Shown here in pieces: positions 4,706 through 36,815 of a DNA stretch of 48,592 nucleotides; positions within the stretch are counted from its first letter, which is position 1, and each line of letters begins with the position of its first letter. The translations under genes were made by a program, and so were the position numbers. Below the pieces are notes generated by a model. It ran no database searches and was not told the DNA's origin. It was given only the letters and a program-made list of their open reading frames with translations. Source of the stretch: a virus. The stretch covers positions 1 through 48,592 of the IMG/VR virus record IMGVR_UViG_3300009502_000073; one strand, 5' to 3'.

Positions 4706-4787
4706 ATCAGTCTCCGTTTAGCAGAATTTTTATTTTGCAGGAGAGAATCAATTTCTTGGCTCTCTCCCGCAAAGTTAAAGGTTAAGT

Positions 4788-10031: not shown

Positions 10032-13000
10032 TCATAGCTCGCCTCTCAGTTTTTTCATCATCTCTTCTTTACTCAATCCATCATACGCGCTCTTCTGTCC
10101 GGTATCATCCAATATGCCGCAGGCCATCACTGTAGAAGTGATTCCATCAACTCTGGTAATTGATTTCTTTTTTGACACTTTCCGGTAGCCATCTTCGTCT
10201 TCAGACATTACGGTATTAGCCGCGTTCCATGTTAAACAGGGATTACCTTCGTGCCGGAACAACTTTTCGATCAGCATGTATTCAAATTTATCAATTGCCG
10301 GTGCCATTGATCGCGCCTCTTGGCCGAATGGCATCATGCGAATATCGCCCCTGCCCTTGAAATCCCATCGCTTCTTTTCTTTATCCCATTTGCCGATGTT
10401 CAATTCGATACCGGCTTTCTCAGCAAATTCCATCAAGTCTTTCATGCGGGAACGATCATAAGCAATGCCTTGAAGTGATGGGAGGTAAGGCAACTCAGAT
10501 ATAAATTTCACAACTTCGGATTTGCTAATCGCTGCGCCTTTGGAAGCAAATACATATTTTGCATCTCTCCAAGCGATATATGGAACATGATCGGTGTCGG
10601 CCTTGAGTTGCAATCCATTCCCTGGAAGCCAGAACCATACCTTTAACCGCCAGAACGAATCATAAACAGGTTTTTGTGCCGGAACCCAAACTCCATCGAC
10701 CTTTTCAAAATTGATATATCCTGGCTCAAACATTAGAGCCAGCGCGGTAAGGTCGTTAACCGCCGATAAGTCTAATCCGCCCCAACATCTGCGGCCAGAA
10801 AGGATGTCAACTGGATAATCTTTATCTGTGCAAGCCTTCCAAACCTCGGGATTAATTGCAGGGTTCTCGGATTCTGTCCAAACACAGAAATTGAGCCGTT
10901 TTACTGTGGACATCTTTGACGGAAGACCTTTAGCTTCTTTGATCTGCCCTCGAATATAATCATACCCAGGTATCCCATAAGGAAGCGAAGGATTTACCTT
11001 CGGCCAGAGAGATTCGTCAATAAGATAATGATCGTCTTCTTCGCCATTAGCATCAAGAAAATCAGCATCATCAAGAGAGCAAATAAAGGAGAAAAACTCA
11101 TCATTTTCTTCCATCTCGTGAGCTATCTTCACCCCGAGATCATGATATTCCCTGCAAACCGAGGTCATATCGTGGCCAGAATTGGTTATCATGAAAGAAA
11201 GCGGCTGTCTGCGGAACTTAAATCCGGCTCTGAGCATTTCAATAATTGAACCGTCAACATGTTCATGGATTTCATCAAGCAAGGCCATGTGAGGTCGAGG
11301 ACCAGATTTCCCTTTTTTCGTATCAGTTGCGATAACACGGAAAAATGAATTTGTTGCGAGATAGGCAAGGTTCCAGCGCTTTTCGCCTACGCCTGAAGCT
11401 ATCAAGCGCTCCTGAAGCATAGGAGATTGGTCATAGAACGCGCAGGCATCACGGAACAATACCATCGCCTGATCCTTGAAGGTTGCTGCTGCGTATATCT
11501 CAGCACGTTCTTCATGATCGGCTACAAGGCCATAGATTCCGGTGCCAGCGCAAAGAGGGCTTTTACCTGAATTTGCTGTTGGAATTAAATTCCGACCAGC
11601 AAGAAATGAGTGTAATTCACTTTCTACCGTAATGCAACGGACTGGAACCGATTCAATAGGCTCGCAACCAACAATCATCCTTCCTCTACTTAACGGCTCT
11701 GTCTTTGGTTCCTCTCGAAGATTATTAATTTTTCTCAGAAGCCTTGCAGGAACTTGTGATTTATAAGCCTGAAAACCAATCCGCCATCTTCTTGAAACCT
11801 CGACTCCATTTAACTTGGCAGCACTTTCGTGAATTTGACATTTATATCCTAATGTTCTCAAAAGATCAGCAACATCATGCGATAATCTTTTATGACAAAG
11901 CGTAATTTCGCATTTGCCATTAGGAGCAATATAACCATCGGTGTCCATTATTCCCTGTAACAACGAAAGTCTTTGTAAATTACCAGCCCTTAAATATCTC
12001 ATCGGAATATGTTTGTTTCCAAGAAGGTTAAGCGTTCTTAGCTTGCCTTGAAAAGTTTTATACTTTGATATCGACCTATCGCCACCAAGAACAACCCTCG
12101 CTGTTGTCGCAGAATGTTTTGACCTCTCGACAGCGGTAACTTTTTCCAGTCTTATTTCCTCTATTATCTGCCAATCAGAATAAGCAACTGTTATACGAGC
12201 ATCATCAGTATTCCCATCTCCTAACCAGACTCCAAGGGAATAAGGTGGAATTAAAAGACCAACATCACCAATACTTATTGATGGCGCAACACCAATTCGA
12301 TAATTCCATTTTGCCTGTGGATGAATGCTTTTAGAATTTTTCATTCTAAATGTTTTAGAAATTGTTAAGGTATTGAATTTTCCGAAACCGCCTTTTTTAA
12401 CCTCACCTAATCTTCGCGGTCCAGCTTTCATTCCACTTCTCAATACCGAAGCAAACCATTCATGTTCTGCATCTGCTATGATTTCGTCTCCATCGGAAAA
12501 TTTTAGCTTAAAGCATTTCCGGTTAAAAAATATTGGGCTAATATCTATTACTTTTGTTGGAATACCGGCAGAGTCAAAAACATAATCTCCTACCCCAATA
12601 GCACCCATCGTTGTCCAACCAGTAGGCGTAGCAATAGGAGTATCAAGCGCAAGTGGCCCCTTCCCTGTTTCAATAAACACTACACGAAATCTGCGAGTAT
12701 CATCAGATTTTCGCTTCCACCCAAAGATATTGCCAATAATAAACGCTTCCCAAGGAAACAGCAAGAATGGTTTACCTTCAAACTGTCCACCATTGAGGCA
12801 TAGGCACTCTTCAAAGAATGCTATGCCTTCGCTGGCCGCATGTTCATCATAATAGAATTTATAACCGGAATCGGTTAGTTCTTTTTTACGGTCATTGAGA
12901 TGGCGCTGGCAAGCAGCACGAACATGAGGTCCAGCAACTATAACACCGGAGATGACATCAGCAGCGTATTGAGTTGCGCGATCTTTAGATTTAGCCGGTT

Positions 13001-13088
13001 TCGAGTTCTTGACGGACAATTTGTTCTCGCTTTCTACGCTTCTGAGCTGATTTCTTGATTCGATTGATAGTCCTGCCGAGTAGATCAT
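10032..13088 (-). CDS. Large terminase subunit, interrupted by an in-frame intein
   Basis: A 1018-residue precursor; removing the intein (residues 145-506) leaves 656 residues. The N-extein ends ETGKG and the C-extein begins SGKSPL, so splicing rebuilds the ATPase P-loop ETGKGSGKS. The Walker B-type ALLDEIHEH and the RNase H-like nuclease start GGLDLSAVNDLTALAL with a later YDRSRMKDL are present. It pumps and cuts phage DNA at the portal. The ATG at 13088 has only a weak ribosome site and its first 32 codons overlap a 55-codon gene; a TTG at 13019 is an alternative start. Confidence 0.93.
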   Translation of the reverse strand: MIYSAGLSIESRNQLRSVESENKLSVKNSKPAKSKDRATQYAADVISGVIVAGPHVRAACQRHLNDRKKELTDSGYKFYYDEHAASEGIAFFEECLCLNGGQFEGKPFLLFPWEAFIIGNIFGWKRKSDDTRRFRVVFIETGKGPLALDTPIATPTGWTTMGAIGVGDYVFDSAGIPTKVIDISPIFFNRKCFKLKFSDGDEIIADAEHEWFASVLRSGMKAGPRRLGEVKKGGFGKFNTLTISKTFRMKNSKSIHPQAKWNYRIGVAPSISIGDVGLLIPPYSLGVWLGDGNTDDARITVAYSDWQIIEEIRLEKVTAVERSKHSATTARVVLGGDRSISKYKTFQGKLRTLNLLGNKHIPMRYLRAGNLQRLSLLQGIMDTDGYIAPNGKCEITLCHKRLSHDVADLLRTLGYKCQIHESAAKLNGVEVSRRWRIGFQAYKSQVPARLLRKINNLREEPKTEPLSRGRMIVGCEPIESVPVRCITVESELHSFLAGRNLIPTANSGKSPLCAGTGIYGLVADHEERAEIYAAATFKDQAMVLFRDACAFYDQSPMLQERLIASGVGEKRWNLAYLATNSFFRVIATDTKKGKSGPRPHMALLDEIHEHVDGSIIEMLRAGFKFRRQPLSFMITNSGHDMTSVCREYHDLGVKIAHEMEENDEFFSFICSLDDADFLDANGEEDDHYLIDESLWPKVNPSLPYGIPGYDYIRGQIKEAKGLPSKMSTVKRLNFCVWTESENPAINPEVWKACTDKDYPVDILSGRRCWGGLDLSAVNDLTALALMFEPGYINFEKVDGVWVPAQKPVYDSFWRLKVWFWLPGNGLQLKADTDHVPYIAWRDAKYVFASKGAAISKSEVVKFISELPYLPSLQGIAYDRSRMKDLMEFAEKAGIELNIGKWDKEKKRWDFKGRGDIRMMPFGQEARSMAPAIDKFEYMLIEKLFRHEGNPCLTWNAANTVMSEDEDGYRKVSKKKSITRVDGITSTVMACGILDDTGQKSAYDGLSKEEMMKKLRGEL
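11571..12656 (-). mobile_element. Class 3-type intein with LAGLIDADG homing endonuclease (362 residues)
   Basis: The intein covers precursor residues 145-506. It starts with Pro, not Cys or Ser (PLALDTPIATPTGW). Block B reads GDEIIADAEHEW, with Trp at B:12; block F is VPVRCITVE with Cys at F:4; block G is LIPTAN with Thr at G:5. This Trp-Cys-Thr set with no N-terminal nucleophile defines class 3 inteins. The penultimate residue is Ala instead of the usual His. Two LAGLIDADG motifs, SLGVWLGDG (about 284-292) and LLQGIMDTDG (about 376-385), mark a dodecapeptide homing endonuclease. The +1 residue is Ser507. Confidence 0.92.
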
Positions 13089-19520: not shown

Positions 19521-19955
19521 TTACGGTATAACATGATCCCATTCTGTGACAAAGGGAAAACTTATAAGTTGATTACAAATCTCTTGAGAATATTGAGAAT
19601 AAATTAATGGTAATAATAAGTTCTTATCGTCTCTTGATGCCATTGCGGCAATGCGATAAAAAAGATCAGAACATTCATCGGGTAAATAAAAATCACGCCA
19701 ACCTTTTTTAACTAATCTTCTTAGGAAGACTTCAATAACTTCTGCATGTCCAAAACTATCTGCAATTTCAAGATGAACTAAATTACATGGCAAATACTTT
19801 TGTGTATATTTAGCGCCGTTACCAGAAACGTGTTGATAAATACGGCTTATTAAATAGCCAGTTATTCCTACATAATATTTATCATCTGAACAATCAAGAA
19901 TATAAATATAATGTCTTCTATCTTTTCTTTTCCCAAAAAACCAAGACGATTTCAT
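19521..19955 (-). CDS. GIY-YIG nuclease domain protein
   Basis: A 144-residue protein whose first 90 residues are a GIY-YIG domain: HYIYILDC, KYYVGIT, RIYQHVSGNGAKYTQKY (the Arg and the GAKYT segment as in UPF0213-type members) and HLEIADSFGHAEVIEVFLRR with the metal-binding Glu. It starts 25 bases after the structured RNA at 19981-20210 on the same strand, with GAGGGG at the start. It could be a free-standing homing nuclease or a DNA repair-type nuclease. Confidence 0.8.
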   Translation of the reverse strand: MKSSWFFGKRKDRRHYIYILDCSDDKYYVGITGYLISRIYQHVSGNGAKYTQKYLPCNLVHLEIADSFGHAEVIEVFLRRLVKKGWRDFYLPDECSDLFYRIAAMASRDDKNLLLPLIYSQYSQEICNQLISFPFVTEWDHVIP

Positions 19956-19980
19956 TTTCCCCTCTTTTAATGACGAACTC

Positions 19981-20210
19981 CACAGCTACGTCAGGATATG
20001 TTTGTGCCGCGCACCGGAATGCCTTGCGGCACCGGCGCGGCTTATATCCTTCCGGCTGTGTATTTCTTTGCCCATTGTCTCTCGACTATTGGGGCAGGGT
20101 ACGCTGATGGATGCGGCCTATGGCGGTAGCTCGCGCGGATTGCCAAGTATTTCATGAACGCTAGCAGCCTTACTATCCCCAGGCCTTAGTTTTACTTGAG
20201 CTACCACCAT
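19981..20210 (-). ncRNA. Strongly folded RNA of unknown class
   Basis: On the minus strand AUGGUGGUAGCUC (20210-20198) pairs with GAGCUACCGCCAU (20132-20120) over 13 positions including one G-U wobble, which would be a C-A mismatch on the plus strand. Inside it AAGUA (20197-20193) pairs with UACUU (20149-20145). Next comes UGCCC/GGGCA (20096-20092, 20073-20069) with a GUC-GAGA-GAC tip. Last is a long hairpin from CACAGC (20060) to GCUGUG (19981) with GGAUAU/AUAUCC, GCCGCG/CGCGGC, CCGG/CCGG and UGCC-GCAA-GGCA. Two GNRA loops appear only in the minus orientation. No protein frame is credible here. HEARO/omega-type RNA is the first class I would test; no IscB gene is present. Confidence 0.8.
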
Positions 20211-20223
20211 TTGGTCGCTATTA

Positions 20224-20409
20224 TTACTTTATAGATATATTAAAATAATTATGTGACAATACCATTTCTTTTAAAATTTTTTCAATATTTTTTGGTAATT
20301 TATCTGTGAGTCTAATCTTTAATTCATATTGTTTTGGAAATGGGGAATAAGGTAGCCCATTAGCAATAAAACTTACATCTGTGACAAATCCCTTTGCTTT
20401 AAGTTCCAT
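20224..20409 (-). CDS. Small protein of unknown function (61 residues)
   Basis: MELKAKGFVTDVSFIANGLP begins a mixed alpha/beta protein with no recognised motif. AGAGGAAAACAAA precedes the ATG and an early-type promoter lies 30-60 bases upstream. It is co-transcribed with the structured RNA, which starts 14 bases after its stop. Confidence 0.6.
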   Translation of the reverse strand: MELKAKGFVTDVSFIANGLPYSPFPKQYELKIRLTDKLPKNIEKILKEMVLSHNYFNISIK

Positions 20410-20437: not shown

Positions 20438-20478
20438 ATATTAAATTATAGTAAATCAAATGTCAAGAACTATTTTAG
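20438..20478 (-). promoter_or_regulatory. Early-type promoter ahead of the structured-RNA unit
   Basis: AAAATAGTTCTTGACA with TTGACA at 20466-20461 and TAATAT at 20443-20438 after 17 bases. Confidence 0.65.
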
Positions 20479-36141: not shown

Positions 36142-36815
36142 TATGCCCTCACACTATAACTGCCGATAGTTTCAACTGCTGTGTTTTTTTTCTTATGGGG
36201 ATGCCTCATATTCTGTTTCGCCTCTTCTGTTCTAGGTATTCCCTTTAAAGAAGGAAGTTTTGCCTTAGTTTCCCTTATCTTCTTCTTTGTTTCTTCAGAT
36301 ATTTTTTTGCCTTTATTTCCTAAAGATATTTTTGTTTTTGTTTCCTCTGATGTAGGATGCCCTTTCTTTGTTTCACTCATCCTTTGTCGAGTTACAGATG
36401 ATTTTTTCTTTCCTCTTTGCCCTTTGCTCATTTTTAGTCTTACTTCTTCTGAATACTTTTTACCACGCATAGGACTTACTTTCCCTTTGTGTGATTCCTT
36501 CATTTTGATTTTAGAACTATCCGAAAAAGAATACCCGTCAATTCCATCTCCACCATTTGTTAAATTATATCCAATAGGAGATTTGCAGTTATAAAATTTT
36601 ATCCAATAAGTCTCTTTCTCGTTTAATATTTCTCGACTGTCGGAATAATCTATTATTTCAATAACGAACGATTCAATCCCGTATTTATTCATTGCTTTAG
36701 CAATAGGGAATTTGTTCTCCCTAATATGGGTAGCAATCCTTTGATTTACATCTTTTTTTGTTTGTCCGATGTAAATTTTCCCATTAACTCTATTTTGTAT
36801 TTTATATATAATCAT
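36141..36815 (-). CDS. GIY-YIG homing endonuclease with NUMOD3 repeats
   Basis: A 224-residue protein. The GIY-YIG domain is at residues 1-90 (IIYKIQNRVNGKIYIGQTKK, RIATHIREN, IEIIDYSDSREILNEKETYW). Behind it lie five NUMOD3-type DNA-binding repeats of the form (G)KxxSEExxxKxxxxxKG (residues about 105-200). It is a free-standing mobile gene placed inside the tail-fibre operon. Its C-terminal end SYSVRA resembles the end of the upstream gene product (IYSVRG). Confidence 0.9.
   Translation of the reverse strand: MIIYKIQNRVNGKIYIGQTKKDVNQRIATHIRENKFPIAKAMNKYGIESFVIEIIDYSDSREILNEKETYWIKFYNCKSPIGYNLTNGGDGIDGYSFSDSSKIKMKESHKGKVSPMRGKKYSEEVRLKMSKGQRGKKKSSVTRQRMSETKKGHPTSEETKTKISLGNKGKKISEETKKKIRETKAKLPSLKGIPRTEEAKQNMRHPHKKKNTAVETIGSYSVRA

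Follow-up and report, generated by a model that had tools for sequence, protein, structure and literature searches.

The element and its genomic neighborhood

The window analyzed here is a stretch of DNA of 48,592 nucleotides from a lake phage, the ends of which carry a direct terminal repeat of 123 bp. Given this repeat, the genome is probably complete and circularly assembled at ~48.5 kb; the record itself may be classed otherwise. On the minus strand we noted an early-type promoter followed by a 61-aa ORF, a GC-rich stretch with the potential to fold as RNA, a gene for a GIY-YIG nuclease and a transglycosylase (SLT) gene (Table 1). The promoter, which the first-pass annotation had already recognized ahead of the RNA, resembles a second one at 31728-31678 (80% over 51 bp), and upstream of it lies an endonuclease VII-like HNH gene that adjoins a helicase gene. 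The RNA, when read from the minus strand, is co-directional with its neighboring genes, and it fills the gap between the stop codon of the 61-aa ORF and the ribosome-binding site (RBS) of the GIY-YIG gene. No terminator is evident after its 3' hairpin and no strong promoter immediately before it, suggesting that it is most simply a part of a longer message.

Table 1. Features of the locus, in the order in which the minus strand is read
Feature	Position	Strand	Remarks
Early-type promoter, TTGACA-17-TAATAT	20438..20466	minus	sigma-70-type; before the 61-aa gene, RNA, GIY-YIG and SLT genes
61-aa ORF	20224..20409	minus	no assigned family; its stop codon lies shortly before the RNA
Structured RNA, whole	19970..20222	minus	253 nt, GC 0.538; copy in contig L019 identical
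5' domain	20120..20210	minus	closed by 13-bp stem 20198-20210/20120-20132; large internal loop
Possible stem continuation in 5' domain	20193-20197/20145-20149	minus	
Small hairpin	20069..20096	minus	GAGA tetraloop 20083-20080
3' hairpin	19981..20060	minus	80 nt; GCAA tetraloop 20027-20024
GIY-YIG nuclease gene	19521..19955	minus	144 aa, UPF0213-like; Pfam PF01541, 1.9e-11; RBS GAGGGG

For the 61-aa ORF no genuine relatives were found, the three candidates that came up (L021-L023) being spurious frames on the strand opposite a long ORF, and the structure modeled from the single sequence of its product has low confidence (pLDDT 62). The solved structures nearest to the 144-aa GIY-YIG protein are those of the UPF0213 proteins 1zg2 and 1ywl, and this protein may be a homing endonuclease. 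A second GIY-YIG gene, at 36144-36815, has a NUMOD3 motif, is a typical free-standing homing endonuclease gene and adjoins the major tail protein gene; it follows its upstream frame with almost no gap and has no comparable RNA structure.

The element stands out from its surroundings in base composition: its GC content is 53.8%, as against 25% in the 61-aa ORF, 31% in the GIY-YIG gene and 40% in the genome. This places it within the most GC-rich 0.1% of the genome, only 0.08% of same-sized windows being equally rich, and agrees with its earlier description as a GC-rich element in an AT-rich neighborhood. A conserved protein frame through the region had been named as evidence that would speak against an RNA; none of the plus-strand frames through it has a Pfam or PHROG match.

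Predicted fold and coding strand

The RNA comprises three structural units, namely a 5' domain, a small hairpin and an 80-nt 3' hairpin. In the ViennaRNA prediction the stem closing the 5' domain consists of 13 continuous pairs with pair probabilities of at least 0.88. Putative pseudoknot pairings (GGCCU with AGGCC, and GGAU with AUCC) can be drawn by eye for the internal loop of this domain. In the small hairpin the pair probability is 0.99 for the inner stem and 0.79 for the outer stem, while in the 3' hairpin it is 0.99 for the lower stem, the base of which lies ~15 nt ahead of the GIY-YIG RBS. All of the helices that the first-pass annotation had drawn, including the 13-position stem and the 80-nt hairpin, were found where it had placed them.

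As a chance baseline we used 1,000 dinucleotide shuffles of the RNA sequence for each strand. The minus strand has a minimum free energy of -95.4 kcal/mol (ViennaRNA) that none of the 1,000 shuffles reaches (z -3.7), and a helix of at least 13 bp or a pair of GNRA tetraloops is likewise rare among them, being seen in 6 and 3 of the 1,000, respectively. On the plus strand, 8 of 1,000 shuffles reach the minimum free energy of the real sequence, the longest helix spans just 9 bp and is matched in 438 of 1,000, and there is no GNRA loop. Furthermore, one pair of the 13-bp stem, a U-G wobble when the minus strand is read, becomes a C-A mismatch on the opposite strand, and the GAGA and GCAA tips are GNRA loops only in the minus-strand fold. 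The wobble and the tips had been put forward from the sequence as pointers to the strand, and this orientation argument is sound. The better fold on the minus strand by all of these measures supports an RNA read from that strand. Taken with the GC island, the shuffle tests and strand bias support the original proposal of a large folded RNA of unknown class, and it is very probable that the minus strand of 19970-20222 makes an elaborately folded RNA. We infer that it is transcribed as drawn and that the fold actually forms.

The strongest part of the RNA is the 3' hairpin, which has a z of -5.64 when considered alone; the 5' domain, taken by itself, gives a modest z of -1.66. In a GC-corrected scan of the whole 48.6 kb with 150-nt windows, the region of the 3' hairpin ranks about seventh among distinct places, indicating that fold stability by itself is not unique to this RNA. 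Once GC content is taken into account, the 150-nt window that folds most stably in this genome includes a strong 14-bp hairpin (TTTGCGGGAGAGA...TCTCTCCTGCAAAA) on the minus strand at ~4730-4780, between two ORFs, which is probably a terminator.

Copies of the RNA and comparison with known classes

The only other copy of the RNA that we found is 100% identical and lies in L019, a contig of a lake metagenome bin labeled Bacteroidetes, which is 99.8% identical to the window over 5.2 kb and represents the same phage species. The bin label is weak evidence of the host because most genes of this phage are preceded by clear Shine-Dalgarno sequences, which are atypical for Bacteroidota. L019 keeps the promoter hexamers; its similarity to the window breaks off a little upstream of them, at window position 20475, where L019 has the end of another frame (L019 1-62) in place of the HNH gene. 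Thus, what follows the promoter is retained as a unit next to differing upstream sequences, pointing to promoters as sites where this phage exchanges modules. Of eleven differences between the two sequences, eight fall within a 142-bp part of the SLT gene (L019 1520-1661, window 19017-18876), and the 1.4 kb that include the RNA and the GIY-YIG gene show none.

The search for homologues that the first-pass annotation had recommended produced one identical copy, and no divergent homologue among phages, plasmids, viral contigs and ~790 Bacteroidota genomes. Searches of the RNA against phages and plasmids with blastn, and of IMG/VR with exact gapped patterns, recovered no further genuine copy; the pattern matches (L020 and L060-L062) had little in common with the RNA beyond the words searched for. 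A covariance model built from the RNA retrieved only the L019 copy from 35 records, related viral contigs and named phages among them. When applied to the ~790 Bacteroidota genomes it drew in matches with e-values of 1e-3 to 1e-2 (L056-L058) that fall inside protein-coding ORFs, and the number of weak matches in some 390 such genomes was about that expected by chance. Relatives of the neighboring or other phage genes gave a similar picture: the RNA is absent from 30 loci with portal relatives, from the helicase relatives L012 and L013, and from the whole records of four of the five phage GIY-YIG relatives that were fetched. A scan of viral contigs with the SLT protein detected no relative.

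No Rfam family matched the RNA at gathering thresholds, and a cmscan of the region against all of Rfam returned nothing at E<=10, in line with the class having been called unknown. Two of the candidate classes named at the outset, a HEARO/omega-type RNA and a degenerate self-splicing intron, did not hold up. The single-family models for HEARO (RF02033) and group I introns (RF00028) had no match in the genome at E<=10, and the group II model (RF00029) was likewise negative at this level. As controls, ten IscB loci taken from other replicons were scored with the HEARO model, and nine gave 59-160 bits; the group I model exceeded its cut-off in two named control genomes. The RNA does resemble HEARO/omega RNA (RF02033) in being a structured RNA of ~200-250 nt immediately upstream of a co-oriented nuclease gene; however, it differs in having no sequence or model match, in being followed by a GIY-YIG rather than an IscB gene, and in lying in a genome without IscB. 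The reported absence of IscB and TnpB genes was borne out, since tblastn with seven IscB proteins found nothing above noise in the genome and PF07282 had no match there. No RVT_1 domain was detected either, and because the genome looks complete, the lack of IscB, TnpB and reverse transcriptase genes counts for more. We accordingly set aside a TnpB omega RNA, for which a TnpB gene in cis is missing, and a retron ncRNA, for which a nearby reverse transcriptase gene is missing. A group I intron was rejected given that the 61-aa, GIY-YIG and SLT ORFs are each complete: with the 61-aa and SLT ORFs both having their own start and stop, there are no split exons around the RNA. The segment CAAGUAAAACUAAGGC, with a supposed resemblance first to an IscB omega RNA and later to the SpCas9 tracrRNA, was also discounted as a pointer, as real HEAROs lack it and its pairing runs the wrong way round for a repeat:anti-repeat duplex.

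Possible roles of the RNA

We tentatively prefer, at a little less than even probability, the interpretation of the RNA as an intercistronic structure of an early polycistronic transcript that acts in cis. Such a transcript would start from the promoter at 20466 and carry the 61-aa gene, the RNA, the GIY-YIG gene and the SLT gene, with the 3' hairpin and the 5' domain separating, and thereby uncoupling, the 61-aa gene from the nuclease gene. The structure could limit ribosome read-through and provide a cleavage or decay boundary, so that the level or timing of the nuclease might be set independently. In favor of this reading, the fold and its strand bias beat the shuffles and the RNA fills the gap before the GIY-YIG RBS; the retention in L019 of the unit from the promoter onwards next to a different upstream sequence would be consistent with it, and a possible precedent by analogy is offered by the endonuclease leader hairpins of T4-like phages (PMC2988022). 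On the other hand, a 253-nt two-domain fold with GNRA tips exceeds the needs of a leader hairpin, the second GIY-YIG gene has no such structure, and the 144-aa protein is itself a presumed homing endonuclease.

In the account of T4-like phages in the review just cited, endonuclease genes carry stable leader hairpins and are regulated by RNA structures. In I-TevI, segB and mobE the RBS is sequestered by a hairpin, whereas in seg43(25) of Aeromonas phage 25, a segD-like homing endonuclease gene, the RBS is left free and a very stable hairpin of putative effect immediately precedes it (PMC2988022). Like the structures described there for I-TevI, segB and mobE, the present RNA belongs to a polycistronic message and lies ahead of a phage endonuclease gene. 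Unlike them, it leaves the RBS mostly accessible by prediction (mean accessibility 0.69, toward the high end among 32 genes), and no late promoter was identified inside it. With no strong sequestration of the RBS predicted, the classical I-TevI/mobE mechanism described in the review would not apply, and the arrangement of seg43(25) is closer, with the very stable 3' hairpin directly before an endonuclease RBS that is predicted to be mostly free. The differences from seg43(25), as far as that source describes it, are the extra ~90-nt 5' domain with its 13-bp stem, the small hairpin and the unrelated phage. If the RNA does act in cis, it would extend the known repertoire of structured leaders before phage endonuclease genes by a domain beyond the leader structures described in the review, and the claim to novelty reaches no further than an unusual variant of a structured leader.

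The main rival, which we consider unlikely but deserving of serious weight, would make the element a phage RNA in its own right, belonging to an undescribed class: cut from the early transcript, with a compact fold held by the GNRA tips and possible pseudoknots, it would act in trans on a host or phage target or bind a phage protein. The two-domain fold, the two GNRA tips on one strand, the retention of a 54% GC island in a tract of 25-31% and the lack of an Rfam match would all suit such an RNA; however, neither a promoter nor a terminator of its own is evident, and with no divergent homologue in the viral contigs, phages, plasmids and ~790 Bacteroidota genomes there is no sign of wide use. 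Should the RNA indeed act in trans, it would be the founding member of a new class of phage RNAs. It is improbable that the element represents a new class of ~250-nt tertiary-folded phage RNA released from the early transcript that either acts in trans or partners the adjacent GIY-YIG nuclease. Rather improbable, too, is a GC-rich piece of DNA, derived from the host or a foreign source, whose strong fold is due to chance: the element is an orphan sequence chosen by eye out of 48.6 kb, its GC content is in the top 0.1% of windows and it is only about seventh in the genome after GC correction, but no shuffle of the same dinucleotide composition folds as well, a helix of this length and two GNRA tips are both infrequent among the shuffles, and none of the protein frames across it matches Pfam or PHROGs.

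The strong palindromic arms and the module edge that varies between strains, L019 differing upstream of 20475, could also point to a DNA-level element, such as a palindrome used in replication, recombination or packaging. This is very unlikely given the strand bias of the fold, with the wobble pair and GNRA tips confined to the minus strand, and the absence of a GC-skew extremum at the locus. We see only a slim chance that the RNA is what is left of a self-splicing or guide-RNA element (a group I or II intron, HEARO/omega or retron RNA) brought in with the nuclease cassette. Although it is surrounded by nuclease genes typical of mobile elements, in a genome with a probable intein in its terminase, the negative HEARO, group I, group II and Rfam-wide searches, the lack of IscB, TnpB and reverse transcriptase, and the absence of flanking split exons come close to refuting such an origin for the families covered by Rfam.

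The terminase large subunit in question (10032-13088, 1018 aa) contains an insert of ~360 aa, around residues 146-507, which splits the Walker A region (GKGP... / SGKS) and which we regard as a probable intein.
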